Assembly: GCF_026745355.1 (NCBI RefSeq)
Contig: NC_079202.1
Span: 1,528,583-1,592,582, forward strand
Source of the DNA: Beta vulgaris subsp. vulgaris
Lineage: Eukaryota; Streptophyta; Magnoliopsida; Caryophyllales; Amaranthaceae
Reading direction: 5' to 3'
Length of the DNA: 64,000 nt
Position numbers and translations under genes: made by a program. Shown piece by piece: positions 1,934 through 38,364 of the stretch. Below the pieces are notes generated by a model. The model ran no database searches, had not been told where the DNA came from, and was given only the letters and a program-made list of their open reading frames with translations. The first letter of the stretch is position 1. Each line of letters opens with the position of its first letter.

Positions 1934-2550
1934 TAGAGGTGCTAATCGAGTTGAGCAGCTCGTGATCGACTCGGTCAACTCTCGACTCGAGTTCGTGATC
2001 GACTCGAGACCTTAATGAGTCGAGTTGAGAAAGCTCCAACTCAACTCGATAAGCTCGCGAACAACTTGTTAAAAATTTTTATATAAATTGTTGAAATGAG
2101 AATGAAAAAAATATATACTTAAAAAGAAAGTAAGGTAATCAAGTTAGAAAGGAGGAGGGAGAAACAATGCATAAAACTTATCCCACATTGGTAGAAAGAC
2201 AAAAAAATCAAAGTCTATTTTAAGATGGTGGCTTAAACAAAAGTCCCACATTGGTTGAAAAGTAAAAACCAAAGCTTATTTTCTTTATAAAAGGGAAGGA
2301 TGACATTTGAGAGTATGGTTGAGCTTGATGGATTTGTGTTGGCTTGAGCATAATGAGCCCAAGTCGAGTTGAGCTTGACAAGTTCGAGTCGAGCTTAACG
2401 AGCTCGAGTCGAGTACTAGAGTCGAGTCGAGCATCAATAATTTTTATCGAGCACGAGTCGAGCTAGGAAATTTGGTGCTTGACAAGTTTCGAGTCGAGTC
2501 GAGTCGAACAGACCCCAGCTCACGATCGACTTGCTCGATTAGCACCCTTA
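1934..2550. mobile_element. hAT-type non-autonomous transposon with snRNA-like promoter motifs (copy 1)
   Basis: The element is bounded by near-matching terminal inverted repeats, TAGAGGTGCTAATCGAG on the left and its complement with one to two changes on the right. It is flanked by 8-bp duplications, GTGTGTAA (1926-1933) and GTGTGTAC (2551-2558). TIRs of the TAGRGGTG form with 8-bp duplications are typical of hAT elements. Both ends are packed with GAGTCGAG/CGACTCGAG motifs. The interior codes for nothing but holds two TCCCACATTGG motifs, the second with a TATA box at fixed spacing. End structure, subterminal repeats and these motifs tie it to the element at 15293-16598. Confidence 0.8.
2243..2294 (+). 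promoter_or_regulatory. snRNA-type promoter module (USE + TATA) inside hAT element
   Basis: GTCCCACATTG at 2243-2253 matches the plant U-snRNA upstream sequence element RTCCCACATCG at 10 of 11 positions. After exactly 32 bp comes TATAAAAG at 2286-2293. Plant Pol II snRNA genes use this pair at about four helical turns. A second, weaker motif (ATCCCACATTG) is at 2180-2190, without a good TATA box at that spacing. The function is inferred from layout only. Confidence 0.55.
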
Positions 2551-14415: not shown

Positions 14416-14627
14416 CTCAACGAATGTGGCTAAATAATAGTGAAAGTTTGTTATCAAAGTAAGAAAGAGGGTAGGACTGGACCCACAAGATTTTTGTATT
14501 CCTAAATACAAAATTTATTTCCTCTTCCCAGCATGTTACCAAAGATATTCATGATTTAGGTGTTGTTTGGTTGGAAGCTATTTCCCTTGGAAATACAAAT
14601 TCCTAGGAAATACATTATGGGTGCTGA

Positions 14628-15125
14628 ACTTCTATCCATCGCCCTAAAATTACTTAAAATCGCTCAAAAAAAAGTTGAAATTACATTTCTAGCCTTTTCC
14701 TTCTTTTTCCCTAAACCACCACCACCTCCACCACCATCCACCTCCTGCCACCACCACCCCATTGCCACAGCCACCCACCATCCACCTGGAAGAAGTCGAA
14801 ATTTTTTTAGGGTGATGGGCGAACGTATGGCCAGGAAGTTCGCTCCATGGAACGAACGTCTGGCCTGGACGTTCGCTCCATGGAGATAACGTCCATGGGG
14901 TGCACGTTTGGCCAGGAACTTCCTGGCCAGACGTTTGCCCATCGCACTAAAAAATTTCCACTGCTTTCAGGTGGGTGGTGGAGGAGGTCGCGGGTGGAAG
15001 TGGGTGGTAGGTGATGGCGGGTGGTTGTAGGTGGTGGCAGGTGGTGGTGGGTGGTGTGGAAAAAAGGAAGGGTAAAGTAGTCTATAAAAATGAATTTTGG
15101 GCAATTTTAAGTACTTTTGGGGTGA
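14628..15125. repeat. Large inverted repeat with CCACCA/GGTGGT arms and CCATGG core
   Basis: The two arms pair over roughly 240 bp each with mismatches. AAAATTACTTAAAATCGC on the left pairs with GCAATTTTAAGTACTTTT on the right, then CCACCACC-rich sequence at 14715-14790 pairs with GGTGGTGG-rich sequence at 14975-15055. The core at 14815-14945 repeats GAACGT, TGGCCAGGAAGTTC and GCTCCATGGA modules in both orientations. Open frames here are by-products of the repeats. Confidence 0.7.
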
Positions 15126-15620
15126 CGTTTAACAATCCTCTATGGTGTTGTGTTTGGTTAGAGGAAAATGGGAGAAGCATAAGAAATCAAAATTCCAAGG
15201 GAAATAGAATTTCCCATGAAATATGGGAAATCACTCACCAACCCCCCCTGGTGAGTAATTTCATAGGAAATGCAATTTCCTATGGTGTCAACTAGGGGTG
15301 TTAACGAGCCGAACCGAGACCGAACATACCCAGGCTCGGCTCGGCTCGGCTCGAGAATGAATGAGTTCGAGCTCGAAGCTCGTCGAGCCAAAAAAAATTA
15401 GGCTCGGCTCGAGCTCGAAACGAACATAACCAGGCTCGGCTCAAAGCTCGGCTCGTGAAATTAAAATTTTAAAAATTGAAAGAAAATTTAGCTTAACATT
15501 TATCAAGACTTTAGATATAGCCCAATGTTTTGCCAAACTTTTTATAAGTATGGATGTCAGGCTAATTTTCATTAAATAATGCAAGCCCAACAACCATACA
15601 TTCTACTCCTATCTATACCT

Positions 15621-15673
15621 CATATATAATACAAGAGGTCCCTTATTACTCTTGCTTTTCCCCAATGTGGGAC
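15621..15673 (-). promoter_or_regulatory. snRNA-type promoter module e
   Basis: On the minus strand, USE-like GTCCCACATTG (15673-15663) is followed after 31 bp by TATTATATATG (15631-15621). It is the duplicate of module c, from the internal 325-bp duplication. Confidence 0.5.
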
Positions 15674-15763
15674 TTTTAAAATCCCAACAAAGGAACTCAC
15701 TTAGGCTCTATAGCGACAGGAAAAAAAAGAAGAGATGGGTGCTTAAGATTTTTCTATCATGCG

Positions 15764-15815
15764 CCTTTTATATTTGGAGATGTGAAGTTTTGCTTTTGCC
15801 TCACTGATGTGAGAC
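15764..15815 (-). promoter_or_regulatory. snRNA-type promoter module d
   Basis: On the minus strand, GTCTCACATCA (15815-15805), two changes from the consensus, is followed after 32 bp by TATAAAAGG (15772-15764). It is the decayed duplicate of module b. Confidence 0.45.
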
Positions 15816-15946
15816 TTATAAACCTTAACTAAATAAGCTCAACATTATGTTTTGTCAAACTCTTTATAAGTATGGATGTTAGACTAATTTTCATTAAATA
15901 TGACAAGCCCCACAACCATACATTGTACTCCTATCTATGCATGCCC

Positions 15947-15997
15947 ATATAATACAAAAGGTCCCTTGTTACTCTTGCTTCCTCCCCAATGTGGGAC
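15947..15997 (-). promoter_or_regulatory. snRNA-type promoter module c
   Basis: On the minus strand, GTCCCACATTG (15997-15987), one change from RTCCCACATCG, is followed after 32 bp by TATTATAT (15954-15947). Confidence 0.5.
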
Positions 15998-16080
15998 TTT
16001 CAAATAACCAAAGGAACCCACTTAGGCTTTACAACAGACACCATGAAGAGATGGGTGTAGTTGTTTTCCATATTATGCAC

Positions 16081-16131
16081 ATTTTATATCTGGAGATGTG
16101 AAGTTTTGCTTTTGCCTCACCGATGTGGGAC
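16081..16131 (-). promoter_or_regulatory. snRNA-type promoter module b, perfect USE
   Basis: On the minus strand, GTCCCACATCG (16131-16121) is a perfect match to the plant snRNA upstream element RTCCCACATCG. It is followed after 32 bp by TATAAAAT (16088-16081). Confidence 0.6.
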
Positions 16132-16340
16132 TTATAAAACATAACTAAATAATTCACAAACACTATGCATTATTCCTCATATTCGCAATATGGGTAGAAG
16201 AAATGTGATAGAATTATATATAGTAAAAGTATTAATTTTATGCTAATCCAAGTTTCTAGGCTTTGCATATTTAATGATTGTCCAACATTATAAAATAAGA
16301 CAAATTAAACAAGAATTATAATGAACTTAAAGGGTAATAA

Positions 16341-16392
16341 GATTATATAGGGATAACAAGGTTAGTGTTTACTTTTTCTATCGATGTGGGAC
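16341..16392 (-). promoter_or_regulatory. snRNA-type promoter module a, perfect USE
   Basis: On the minus strand, a perfect USE GTCCCACATCG (16392-16382) is followed after 32 bp by TATATAATC (16349-16341). Sequence between and downstream differs from modules b-e, so the conserved spacing is not explained by the internal duplication alone. Confidence 0.6.
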
Positions 16393-17054
16393 AATACTTT
16401 TTTACATAAAGCATATCTAAAACATTTTACGAACATGTTTGCGAACTTTCGAGCCGAACTCTACTAGGCTCAGGCTCAGGCTCGGCTCGCTAAGGTCACG
16501 AGCCCATCTCGAACTCGAGCCGAGCTTTGACCGAGCCGAGCTTTGACCGAGCCGAGCTCGAACAGTTTGCGAGCCACCATGGCTCATTAACACCCCTAGT
16601 GTCAACCAAACAATTTTATCTAATTCCTAGGAAATTAACAAGGATCCCATAAAATGTAAATTTTCATGGAAAATTACTTCCCTTGAGAACCAAACGAGAC
16701 CTTAGTGTTGTAGACGTAGATAATGCGGTAAATCCAGAACACCATATAATCTCTCAGCTCAAGTCACTTTAATAGAATAAGACGAAGGAATACCATTCCA
16801 AGAAGAAAACCTACTACATATATTGTATATAAAAAAAAAAGCAGGGGCAAAAGAAAGAGAAGACAAAGAATAGCCAGCGATTATAAATTGACATCCACAA
16901 CATATGTTAGTTTTAAAAACCAGATAACGTTGCAACCAATATCGTCTCACATTCCCACCCACCCACTCCTTTTATAGTTGTCTACCCACCAATACTTTCT
17001 ATTACAAAATATAATTCTTATTCATACTAATCCAAAACACCTCATCTTTCTTCA

Positions 17055-17139: not shown

Positions 17140-20100
17140 ATGGGCCAGAATTTGTTGCAAGCACTAAATGTGCGTGTAGAAGGGACGGGTGAGAATTACT
17201 TGGTGTTAGCTCATGGCTTTGGTACTGACCAATCGGCGTGGCAAAGAATACTTCCCTACTTTACTCCTTACTACCGCGTGATCCTCTATGACTTGGCTTG
17301 TGCGGGTAGTGTCAACCCCGACTTCTTCGACTTCCGGCGATACACGACACTCGATGCGTACGTCGATGATCTCCTCGACATCCTCGATGCGTTGGGTGTC
17401 ACGCGCTGTGCCTATGTTGGTCATTCTGTTTCTGCTATGATTGGACTTCTTGCTTCTATTCGTCGCCGTGAACTCTTTTCTAAGCTCATACTTATTGGTG
17501 CTTCTCCTAGGTATGTGTATGAATTATGATCATCACTATTCTTCTCGTAATTTTGATAAGAAAGATTCCCAATTCCTAGTTATGTTTAGTAGTTGGTGTG
17601 TTATTTGGTCAAAAAGGGTACATGTCTTATCTTCTTTTAGTCTAATCTTCGTTGGAGAACTGTCTAGTTTGTCCTCGTCATAAGTTTTATTTGCATATCA
17701 TAACTCTTTTGCACTGTACATAACAACTTTATGACTAAGTAGTAGTACTTGGATTGGATAGTAGTAGACTATTAGTAGGGGAGTTATCTTCGGACTTTGA
17801 TGTCACAACTTACTTTAATCTTATGAGCTAACTGTAGTTTTTAGGGATGAGAGTTCTCTTATCCTTCTTCATTTTCAGAACCCCATGAATAAAGTTCGAA
17901 GATTTTTTAATAATGAATAACCCTAGTTTTAGGGTATTTAATTTACCAATTTTAGCTAGATATCTAAACTTGCATTTGCTTATTTAGTTTAGTTTAATGA
18001 TTAACTTAGATATGACAAGCTTGGTGTTGATGGATATGACTTTTGACTACAAAATAAAAATGCATTTATTATGGATTATTTAGAATAAGTTGTTCCTGTT
18101 TTTTTTCCAATGAATGACATTGACTTGAACTAACCTATCAATTTTCACCATAAATAAGTTGTGTCATGTGTTAAAAATATATTTATTGTAATATGTAGAT
18201 TATTAATACAAGTTTTTTCTTGATATGATTGATTACAGATTAACTTATATAAGAATAATTTCATAAGAATCAGCAAGGTTGGCTTAGTAATTAGTTGGAT
18301 GCATGCCTTCTTTCTACTTTTATGACAAAGTTTTGATTCTTACCTCTTGTAAATCGGGATCTCAAATTCATCCCCTCCCTCCCTACTTACAAGATATCTC
18401 CATCTTACTTAAAAACATAAAAACGATTTCATAATTTTATAATTGCACGTAGTAGACAACAATATCAGTCAATTTTTTTTTACAATGCTTTGATTTTTAA
18501 TGTTTTCAAGTACAACTTTGAACATTCATATTCTTTTTATTAGTAGCAATTATAGAAATTATGAAAATAAATATAATATAATAAGATTAATCTAACAACT
18601 TCACCATCAATAAAATTTTTTAATAGACATTGTAGAAATTATAAATTATATATTGAGATTAATCTAACAACTTTGACCATCATAGTTCTAACTGTAGGTA
18701 TTGTTTTTAAAATTTCGATCCGGATATTACGATCCTACGATTCTACGATACGAGAGGACCTCATCGATGATCCTACGTAGGATCTTAATTTTGTAGGATT
18801 TTCGATCCTATCCAACCACAAAAATTATATGGTAGGATCTTAACATAATTCTACGATATGATCCTATCGTAAAAAAATAAGAAAGTAATTTCACATATTA
18901 TATTTCTCCTATTAGATTTTAATTGTATGTTACTTCAATTTTATTGTATTGAAAAACTATCACCATTTGCTAATGAAATAAGTCATATTAATATATGTAA
19001 ATTTTTAATATGAGTTTCTCACCATATTCTAGCATAATTATCTCTATTTTAATCAGAAAGAAATGAAAGAAGTGTAGTATACTATCTATATTCTATACTT
19101 CATTAAAAAGTGTGGATAATATGTTTTCTCACATATTTTATCCTGCTCTCATTTAAACGATCTACACTCCAATTAATAAAGTCATTTAGAATAAAAAAAT
19201 AATTCTGTGAAGACTTAAATAGATAACCTCATAGAAGAAAATGAGAAGGTTAACCACTAATTTAACTTTATATTTTATGTTACTTTTGTCAACATAAAGC
19301 ATACTTCTTTTAGTTTTCTATTACTTGCATCGTTTCTCATTTTTTTGACAATTTTCTATTATTTGCATCATTTTTAATTTGGACAATATATATTCTTTTT
19401 TTCTCTCTTGGCACATTGAAATCCTTTTTCTCCCTATCTTCTCACCTTAATCCTTGTGCAAATCTTGTGCAAATTAAAACGATACGGATAAATTAGATAA
19501 AATATAAGAAGAGAATCAACAAAGACCTATCGATTCAAGCAGGCGGCCACATTAACTTCAACAATCCTATTTGATACAAATTGCCAATTACACAATCTAT
19601 CTATCACAATCCCATTTGAATGTATGAATTGTTATCAAAGGCAAAAATTATAAATGTTATTACTAACATCGCTCACGTCGTGATAAACTTTGAATGTATG
19701 ATCAAATGGTAATATGGTAATGGAGACATTTGACATGAAAAATTTCTTTTATTAAATAAATGTATTTGAGGGAACATGTTATTAAATATATTACTAGTTA
19801 TTAGGCCCGAGCTATGTTCCAGGTAAGAAAAAAAACTCATTTATTAATATAATACTTTATGATAATAACACTAAATACAACTTAGCCTAGTGGTTAGAAC
19901 TTTAGTATATGTACTTGGGATCAAATCCTATATTATGCAATTTCTTAATTTTTTTATTGTACCTGTATTACAATTAATGTCATTTGGTGCAAAAAAATGT
20001 CCCTATAAAGAAGAAAATAATTCATTCTATTCATAATACTCCATACATTTAAAATTAAATTAAATTGTAGTTTAACTCTTGGTTTCTCTTAAAAACCTAC

Positions 20101-35918: not shown

Positions 35919-38364
35919 CACAACAAGAATCCGCCATTTTACCGTCCGCATTTACCGTCCGTCAAAATTAGCAGACGGTAAAGTTAAAATTACCGTCCGA
36001 ATTAAACCAGACGCTATATACCGTCCGATTTCCAAAATTTACCGTCCATTATGCTGCCCGACACTATTTACCGTCCGTTTTTACGTCCGCTCAAATATAA
36101 AAAAATAAAATAAAACAATTTATCGTCCGCATAGGACCATTTACGTCCATAAGACGGACGCTAATCTTGCGGGTGATGAATAAGGACGCGACGACCCTAA
36201 TTTTGTTTCATCCACACAATAACAAAAGCATTCTCTCTCTCACTCATCCCAATTCTCTCACTCTCTCTCTCTCTCTCTCTCTCTGTCTCGCTCATTCATC
36301 ATCTCCCACTTATCTCACTCTCTCTCATCCCAATTCTCTCACTCTCTCTCATCGTTTTTTTGTCGTCGCCATCCATCCCCAACATCACAGGCTCCACGAA
36401 AACAGTTGAAATAACGCCTTCGCCATATTTCAAGGTTAAATCTAGTATTTTTTTTCATAATTTTTGTTTTTTTGGGTAGTTTACCGTTTCGATGGTTGGT
36501 TTCCTTTCAAATTCGTTTTTTTAAATTGGTTTTCTTCAAACTTTTTAAATTTCTTTTTTTTTTAAATTTGATTTCTTAAAATTGGGTTTTTTAGTTGGAT
36601 TTGCGCTGTTTTTATGGTTTTTGTGTCAGCGGCGGTTAGGGTTAGGTTTTTTGGGCGGCGGTGGTGAGGGTTTCTGGGTGGCGGCGGTTAGGGTTTTCGC
36701 AAGGGTTGTTCTGGGCTGGGGTTTTTATTTCAAATGGTATTTTTTATATTTTTCGATATTTTTTTGTTTTTGTGGGGTTAGTATAGGGGTGTAAGTTATT
36801 TGGTTAAAAACCGAAAACCAAACCAAACCAAACCGAATTAGTAATTTGGTTTGGTTTTTTTTGAAATTCGGTTTGGTTTGGATTCAAAAAAATTATTTTT
36901 TCGGTTTTTCGGTTTGGATTGGTTTTGGTTTTGGAAAACCGAAAAAACCGAATTATTGTCTATTATTTTTTTGTGTTTCTTTTTTTAATATTAATTACGA
37001 AAATACAAAAATATTGTCACTTAAAATACAAATTATCATAAAGTTTGGTTTAAATTCGGTTTGGTTTTTATCTTGGTTTGATTTAATTTCATTTCGGTTT
37101 GGTTTGGATTTTGGAATATGAAAAAAATTGGTTTGCTTTGGTTTGGATTTTGAAAGATAAAAAAATCCGGTTTGGTTTGGTTTGGTTTTTGGTTTCATAT
37201 TTTGGTTTGGTTTGGTTTGGATTGAGTCGAATTTCGGTTTGGATTTGGTTTGGAAATTTCAAAACCGAATTTATTTCGGTTTGGTTTGGTTTTGACCTAA
37301 AACCAAACCAAAAACCGAACTTACACCCCTAGGTTAGTATTGCGGTAGATCTGAGTTTTTTTTTCAGAACATCTTTGTCCTTTTTAAAAAAAAATTTCTG
37401 CATAGATTTCAGTTTGATTTTTTAAAGGTTTTTTATTTGAATTTCGTTTTCTGGTTTTTTTATTTATTTTTTCTATTTTGATTTTTCTTACTTAGTTTTT
37501 GTCATTCTGATTTTTTATTATGAGTTTCGGGTTTGTGGGTTATGGGGTTCGGATTTAATTAATTTTTTGGTTAATCTCATCTAATTATGCTTGGGTTAAA
37601 TTTTGGTACTGCTTGCTTTGTGGTTTTAATCATATGGTTAAATGTTTATTTTAATGTTGGGGTTATATTAATTTTTGTTCAATCTTTGTGGTTGCAGATC
37701 ATATGTGTGCAAGGATTATTTGAAGAGATTGATTCCAGATATTATTTGAATAGATGTATTTTTTTATTTAACATTTTAGTTTAACTAATTTTGTTCTAGA
37801 TATTACTGGGATTTTAATTGGGATGTAAAATATGTTGTATTTACCATTATAATTAATATGAAGTACTTCTATAGGGATTCATTTTTACGTTTCAATTTCA
37901 ATGTTTCTTTTCATTTTTGTGTGCAATTTCCGTCTGCCTTTGTGATTTAGAGACAGAACCTTACATCAGAAACTTTATCAAAACCTTACATCATTAAGAG
38001 GGAAAAAAATAATAAAGTAATATTTGAATTTGTATTTTATTATGCTGTGTTGTGCAATTTCCGTCTGCCTTTGTGATTTAGCGTCCGCGAATTCGGACGG
38101 TAATTAGCGTCTGACTTTTCAGACGCTAATTACCGTCCGTATTCTTGGACACTAATGACCGTCTGAAATTTCAGACGCTAAATAAAAAATTCGGACGCTA
38201 AATATTTACCGTCCGCCAAACGGACGTTAAATGGAGAATTAGCGACCAGGGGTTTTGCATCAGCCTTTTAGCATTCGTTGACGGACGCTAACCTCTTTAC
38301 TGTCCGATCCCTCATTTTTAGCGTCCGATTTTGGCGGATGGAAAAGAGTGATATTCTTGTTGTG
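35919..38364. mobile_element. CACTA-type non-autonomous transposon inside the satellite
   Basis: The 12-bp TIRs CACAACAAGAAT are perfect inverted copies at both ends, flanked by the 3-bp duplication CGC (35916-35918, 38365-38367). Both subterminal regions (about 35935-36170 and 38080-38340) are crowded with ACCGTCCG, TAGCGTCCG and their complements, the repeated sites that CACTA transposases and accessory proteins bind. The middle has a (CT)n run near 36233-36283 and no transposase. It interrupts a 320-bp satellite unit whose two halves continue on either side, and is itself interrupted by the hAT MITE at 36784-37331. Confidence 0.88.
36784..37331. mobile_element. hAT-type MITE nested in the CACTA element
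   Basis: TIRs TAGGGGTGTAAGTT and its exact complement are flanked by perfect 8-bp duplications GGTTAGTA (36776-36783, 37332-37339). Inside, both ends are runs of TTTGGTTTGG/CCAAACCAAA and CGGTTT. Open frames through the GGTTTGGT repeats are artefacts. Confidence 0.9.

Follow-up and report, generated by a model that had tools for sequence, protein, structure and literature searches.

A complete, non-coding hAT element of about 1.3 kb, delimited by a structure scan at positions 15293-16598 of the window (the whole 64-kb stretch of DNA analysed here), carries on its minus strand five pairs of a USE motif and a TATA-like box, and such USE-TATA pairs occur in hAT elements of this genome whose subterminal repeats are rich in GAGC. 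From their sequence and spacing, we predict that the five pairs function as promoters of the Pol II snRNA type and that, through them, the element is likely transcribed from inside; we put the probability of this reading at about 0.6.

Structure of the element and its five USE-TATA modules

Short TIRs of the TAGGGGTG type are a mark of the hAT superfamily, and the element has such TIRs, of the form TAGGGGTGTTAA(C/T)GAGCC, together with a perfect 8-bp TSD (GTGTCAAC) and GAGC-rich subterminal repeats. The TSD and TIRs, and the 8-bp TSDs of the copies fetched from the genome, bear out the initial annotation of a hAT-type transposon; the span given for it (15621..16392) lies inside the element, which is larger. 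The features of the element are as follows.

15293..16598, minus strand (that of the promoter modules): complete non-autonomous hAT element; perfect 8-bp TSD; TIR with 1 mismatch in 14; at least 52 matching genome pieces
15285..15292, no strand: left TSD, GTGTCAAC (structure scan)
16599..16606, no strand: right TSD, GTGTCAAC (structure scan)
15293..15310, plus strand: TIR TAGGGGTGTTAACGAGCC, the end that the modules read towards
16581..16598, minus strand: TIR TAGGGGTGTTAATGAGCC, the end that the modules read from; module a begins 206 bp inside
16382..16392, minus strand: USE a, GTCCCACATCG; TATATAAT after 32 bp (16349-16342); pair kept in 29/30 copies
16121..16131, minus strand: USE b, GTCCCACATCG; TATAAAA after 32 bp (16088-16082); pair kept in 28/30 copies
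15987..15997, minus strand: USE c, GTCCCACATTG; TATTATA after 32 bp (15954-15948); pair kept in 24/30 copies
15805..15815, minus strand: USE d, GTCTCACATCA, decayed (family majority GTCCCACATCG); TATAAAA after 32 bp (15772-15766); pair kept in 26/30 copies
15663..15673, minus strand: USE e, GTCCCACATTG; TATTATATA after 31 bp here (15631-15623), 32 bp in the family majority; pair kept in 27/30 copies
15525..16152, no strand: internal tandem duplication (about 15525-15836 and 15847-16152), modules b-c being related to d-e; repeat families D2, D3, D6, and D13

None of the ORFs lying wholly inside the element exceeds 54 aa, and three ORFs of 62-94 aa span one of its ends. All five USE-like motifs previously proposed on the minus strand were found in their places, and their gaps to a TATA-like box (32, 32, 32, 32, and 31 bp) were reproduced. 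Compared with the USE consensus RTCCCACATCG, modules a and b have no mismatch, c and e have one, and d has two; the decay of d is peculiar to the window copy, and the 31-bp gap of e is not that of the family majority. The proposed linkage of b to d and of c to e by an internal duplication was also seen (unit of about 320 bp), and because of it the independent modules number three, not five. Ungapped comparison of the spacers in modules a, b, and c shows no similarity above that of shuffled ones. A TATA-like box was defined as TATAWA or TATTATA, the latter added after modules c and e had been seen; on the minus strand, its frequency per 3-bp slot is 0.010 for the whole window and 0.022 for the element, and a hand estimate from this slot frequency puts the chance that three independent modules share one gap at about 1e-5. 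With two mismatches allowed, the window holds 18 loose USE matches versus 13.25 expected, and 15 of 100 shuffles reach 18, which is no excess. The unusual feature of the window is the pairing of USE and TATA, not the number of USEs.

An Rfam scan of the whole window gave zero matches at gathering score, so that no snRNA stands behind the modules, and a scan of the element gave no snRNA either; on these two scans, the capture of an snRNA by the element was rejected. Weak matches of the element to miRNA and bacterial-sRNA models, mostly in its GAGC-rich ends, were discarded for scores far under the gathering scores. The 3' box motif of plant snRNA genes is CA-N3-10-AGTNNAA. In the sense direction it matches the family consensus once, two of the elements described below (L045 and L111) once each, and two others (L043 and L039) not at all, and it was rejected as a sign of snRNA processing because its matches are inconsistent among elements. 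With no Rfam snRNA and no consistent 3' box, the earlier suggestion that the element makes short snRNA-like RNAs is unsupported.

The modules have the geometry of Pol II snRNA promoters

In plant Pol II snRNA promoters, the distance from USE to TATA is four helical turns, according to excerpts of PMC9845283. We used the U2, U5, and U6 genes of the same genome as a yardstick. Among 12 U2 promoter stretches, a TATA box lies at exactly 32 bp in four, AATAAAA at 32 bp in three, and other sequence at 32 bp in two, and no USE was seen in three. The three highest-scoring U2 loci, from a separate set of 12 stretches that are mostly gene or masked, have no canonical TATA at 32 bp. In addition, a USE-32-TATAAA pair (C6:18034924) stands directly before a U2-like match (C6:18034999) that is below the cut-off, and one of the USE-TATA matches (L049) belongs to a U5 gene, whose gap is 31 bp. 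At the 20 U6 loci, the TATA box begins 26 bp after the USE in eight and about 15 bp after it in one, and the other eleven are without a canonical box. Since the gap is 31-32 bp in those U2 and U5 genes that have a canonical TATA, and mostly 26 bp in U6 genes, the module geometry is of the Pol II snRNA promoter type, and the architecture first proposed for the modules agrees with this calibration. The modules resemble plant U2 and U5 promoters in the USE consensus (RTCCCACATCG) and in the distance of 31-32 bp to the TATA box; unlike these, they sit in non-coding transposons, are arrayed, and have no snRNA behind them.

USE and TATA are common to both promoter types, and the modules might instead be U6-type Pol III promoters making short RNAs, much as U6-like USE promoters drive Cuscuta MIRNA genes (PMC10226582, a commentary). 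However, the TATA of U6-type promoters is one helical turn closer to the USE, and the modules of the window element have 31-32 bp rather than 26; the transposon modules use 32 bp, whereas eight of the 20 U6 loci use 26. We rejected the Pol III reading on this gap and regard it as very improbable.

Only the TATA box is clearly conserved among close copies

A genome search of the assembly that contains the window (569 Mb, 20 contigs; 40 of 1002 candidates scored) found at least 52 pieces matching the element. From these, 30 loci were fetched and aligned, with minus-strand matches turned. The 8-bp TSD is perfect in 18 of the 30 copies and has one mismatch in six more (24/30 with at most one mismatch); in the remaining six, the match ends short of, or is shifted at, an element end. 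Two loci about 20 kb apart on C11, L011 and L015, have the TSD CGTGAGAC in common, and because of this they look like a segmental duplication and may represent one insertion, not two.

The modules are kept in other copies. When all five modules of the 30 copies are counted, 134 of 150 combine a USE that has no more than one mismatch with a TATA-like box 31-33 bp on, and 107 of 150 have an exact RTCCCACATYG and a gap of exactly 32 bp. In the majority sequence of the family, all five modules read GTCCCACATYG (GTCCCACATCG three times and GTCCCACATTG twice). The initial annotation had proposed to test whether USE, TATA, and gap are conserved above the rest of the aligned copies, and this held for TATA, not for USE or the gap. 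TATA divergence within the 30 copies is 0.5%, where base content predicts 1.8% (permutation P = 0.0004), USE divergence is 2.7% versus 3.9% expected (permutation P = 0.34, not significant), and spacer divergence is 3.8% versus 3.2%. No selection on the gap was found within the 30 copies, as gap-changing indels occur in 3-6 of 30 copies per module and are as common as in other stretches of 49 bp. Only the TATA is clearly conserved within close copies. Constant spacing within the array, which had been offered as a sign of function, is weaker evidence than claimed, since the gap gains indels like other stretches; the stronger argument for functional spacing is that the same gap recurs across different families. 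We read the USE-TATA pair as a putatively ancestral feature kept by the transposing lineages while single copies decay. Because young copies decay almost neutrally, the promoter activity of a single copy is probably short-lived and lost quickly.

Genome-wide, USE and TATA are paired at 32 bp

The whole assembly was searched for a USE followed after 17-47 bp by a TATA box, with the reversed pattern as control. The search gave 724 GTCCCACATTG-TATAAA pairs, 604 of them at exactly 32 bp (reversed control, 2), 166 GTCCCACATCG-TATAAA pairs (control, 0), and 108 GTCCCACATCG-TATATA pairs (control, 0); in these counts, a few places fall under two patterns, real snRNA genes are included, and only a few of the 724 pairs were placed in elements. 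Among 100 matches listed of the 166, 77 are at 32 bp and 96 at 31-33 bp, and they form 14 spacer clusters. Among 100 matches listed of the 108, 41 are at 32 bp, 26 at 26 bp, and 12 at 35 bp; at three of the gap-35 places, whose letters were inspected, the box has the TATTATATA form and starts at 32 bp. The genome has two sharp gap classes, 32 and 26. Gaps varying at random, which the initial annotation had named as evidence against its own reading, were not seen; the genome-wide peak stands at 32 bp.

These pair counts refute chance matches in AT-rich DNA, multiplied by duplication, as the source of the modules. Such an origin would fit the ordinary number of loose USE matches in the window and the fact that b/d and c/e are copies; however, the reversed controls of 0 and 2 contrast with 166 and 724 pairs, and the peak appears in many spacer clusters, which leaves chance with next to no probability.

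Pairs of USE and TATA at the U6-type gap (26 bp) are also scattered through the genome as a class of their own, seen in 26 of the 100 GTCCCACATCG-TATATA matches listed (e.g., C1:30275570-30275612). With GTCCCACATTG, pairs at 26 bp were seen at C1:6300535, C1:18550056, C1:27471199, C1:39699304, and C2:7153609.

Other hAT elements carry USE-TATA pairs

The structure scan found three hAT-like elements in the 64-kb window. The second differs from the element described above and also contains a USE-TATA pair, which the initial annotation does not mention.

1934..2550, plus strand: second, different hAT element; TIR TAGAGGTGCTAATCGAG; TSD GTGTGTAA/GTGTGTAC (structure scan); GAGTCGAG repeats
2243..2253, plus strand: USE GTCCCACATTG; TATAAAAG after exactly 32 bp (2286-2293)
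2180..2190, plus strand: USE-like ATCCCACATTG; no TATA at 32 bp

In the genome, the first 30 GTCCCACATCG-TATAAA loci by position, which by their coordinates are 26 distinct places, were checked for hAT marks. At least two GAGC-type subterminal repeats were seen at 28 of the 30 and a recognisable hAT end at 26, by marks that were defined after those loci had been inspected; the exceptions are the U5 gene (L049) and L046. As controls, none of 20 U6 loci qualifies, and the repeats are present in 2 of 21 3-kb pieces of the window. A TSD scan of 16 of the 30 loci gave a hAT-type TSD and TIR in L039, L043, L045, L050, L054, and L055; the TSD of L037 (TCTTGAAC) was recognised by eye, and the scan gave none in the other nine. 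L043, L045, L050, L054, and L055 have TAGGGGTGTTAACGAGCC ends, perfect 8-bp TSDs, and differing inner sequences.

Arrays of four or five pairs occur in at least two groups of families. For example, L037 has four pairs at 32 bp, one of which uses GTCCCACATTA, and L111 (G000:C1:9355700-9356695), a hAT element with the TSD TATATATA, has four USE-TATA modules, all at 32 bp; the module triplet of L111 recurs at many GTCCCACATTG-TATAAA places among the matches listed. The pairs have a common polarity, reading from the TAATGAGCC end to the TAACGAGCC end in loci that show both literal ends. Eight families were compared, six of which had been found via their location in the window or via the USE, and in these eight the distance from one end to the first strict pair is 192-309 bp; the only pair of L045 lies about 940 bp inside, and the first motif of L039 is decayed.

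Elements were also collected by their ends only, as opposite pairs of the exact 18-bp ends at most 3 kb apart on contig C1, which gave 14 elements. A strict pair is present in eight of the 14 and an intact or near-intact pair in ten, including GTCCCACATCG-32-TATATAAT in L110 and ATCCCATATCG-33-TATAAAAG in L106; one element has a decayed TATA (L108, with a perfect USE and TATGAAA at 32 bp), and L105, L107, and L109 have no module. Elements with the same ends and no pairs, the other finding that the initial annotation held to speak against it, thus exist as a minority (3/14 on C1).

The first modules of the eight families have a mean divergence of 0.05 in the USE, 0.11 in the TATA, 0.33 in the spacer, 0.51 upstream, and 0.64 downstream, with a gap that is always 32 bp; because modules were admitted only with a USE match and TAT(A/G) 31-34 bp on, the low USE and TATA divergence and the constant gap are partly built in, whereas the spacer and flank figures are not. 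Taken together, these results place USE-TATA pairs in hAT elements of this genome whose subterminal repeats are GAGC-rich.

The pairs could nevertheless be fossils, if a U-snRNA-type promoter, once present in or captured by an ancestral element of the clan, was then spread by transposition and internal duplication without present use. Near-neutral decay within copies would be expected of fossils, and it fits them that the window element is non-coding with no Rfam match at gathering score and that arrays arise by internal duplication. Against this stand the presence of USE, TATA, and the 32-bp gap in families with a flank divergence of 51-64% (with the module selection just described), the recurrence of the 32-bp gap in many spacer clusters, and arrays in more than one group of families. 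We consider an origin as unused fossils unlikely, though well worth weighing.

Predicted promoter function

If the modules act as predicted, a SNAPc-like factor on the USE and TBP on the TATA would recruit Pol II, and each module would start an RNA about 30 bp downstream. In this way, the housekeeping snRNA machinery of the host would serve as the element's own promoter. More tentatively, the first module may derive from the promoter that drives the transposase in autonomous relatives, a gene that would share its reading direction, and the non-autonomous copies may have inherited it. In search of such relatives, 150 PF05699 matches (of 789 candidates) were compared by eye with 100 listed of 168 TAACGAGCC ends and with the USE-TATA places listed. 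Among the ends listed, one of the 150, a domain at G000:C2:22965177-22965425, lies 775 bp inside a TAACGAGCC end and reads towards it, in the predicted direction; by hand estimate, about 0.03 such matches near an end would arise by chance. The region G000:C2:22965177-22966217, with a hAT dimerisation domain and a 341-aa open frame, is a candidate autonomous relative of the clan. Because no strict pair of the three patterns lies within 8 kb upstream of this candidate, among the places listed, the role of the first module as a transposase promoter stays unproven.

The USE might also work without starting an RNA, as a protein-binding site or chromatin opener for a SNAPc-like or other factor, with TATA and gap inherited from a captured promoter. 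The arrays of L037 and L111, for example, have some modules at distances of only 90-97 bp, which leaves little room for separate RNA genes, and the inconsistent 3' box points the same way. However, of the parts compared, the TATA is the best conserved within copies, which is hard to explain if only the USE mattered, and we hold a pure binding-site role to be improbable.

Extended beyond the window element, the promoter reading would mean that a whole clan of plant hAT elements is driven by the host's Pol II snRNA promoter, built into the elements and multiplied into arrays. The clan would then have spread many hundreds of ready-to-use promoters of the snRNA type through this genome, and this reservoir could make demands on the host's SNAPc-like factor and seed new non-coding genes driven by snRNA promoters. 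We offer this as a tentative possibility, at rather less than even odds. If true, non-coding RNA genes would have a new promoter source in this multi-copy, mobile, and correctly spaced Pol II snRNA promoter, which might also serve as a sink for snRNA transcription factors.

Relation to known systems

Small DNA transposons are commonly credited with the spread of enhancers or of single binding sites for a factor. hAT MITEs, those of the hATpin type among them, are non-coding and multi-copy, with an 8-bp TSD and short TIRs; in these features they, including BvhATpin, resemble the elements described here. A hATpin is marked by a very stable hairpin formed by the whole element. BvhATpin are sugar-beet hATpin-type hAT MITEs (Menzel 2012, as cited in excerpts of PMC11603912 and PMC12804786). 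The words snRNA and TATA are absent from the main text of PMC12804786 and PMC12595863. Searches of an open-access library, which leaves most subscription journals outside, gave, by titles and abstract openings, no description of a USE-TATA pair in any hAT element or MITE.

Among the literature covered, the nearest known systems are the Pol III promoters of TRIM retrotransposons (PMC10886601) and the U6-like USE promoters of Cuscuta MIRNA genes (PMC10226582). The TRIMs Cassandra, Helenus, and Ajax have Pol III promoters derived from 5S or tRNA genes (excerpts of PMC10886601) and are, like the present elements, non-autonomous with the promoter of a host small-RNA gene; however, they are LTR retrotransposons with Pol III promoters, whereas here DNA transposons carry an upstream promoter of the Pol II snRNA type. 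The Cuscuta MIRNA loci (Hudzik 2023, via the commentary PMC10226582) likewise have a USE promoter outside snRNA genes, but it has Pol III features and belongs to MIRNA genes, not transposons. In Brassicaceae, MITEs have amplified E2F sites (excerpts of PMC12595863) and have in this manner spread the binding site of a host factor, as here; unlike the modules, these are single 10-bp sites and not a complete spaced core promoter.

Surroundings of the element in the window

The third hAT-like element of the window (36784-37331) has the TSD GGTTAGTA and the ends TAGGGGTGTAAGTT, is rich in GGTTTGG repeats, and has no USE motifs. An outer element at 14559-16701, with the ends GGTGTTGTTTGGTT/GGTCTCGTTTGGTT and TTA on both sides, apparently encloses the hAT element at 15293-16598; the TTA flanks are presumably those of a PIF/Harbinger element. 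A gene on the plus strand starts at 17141, with a product that we take to resemble the D14/KAI2 alpha/beta-hydrolase receptors, and the modules of the element point away from it.
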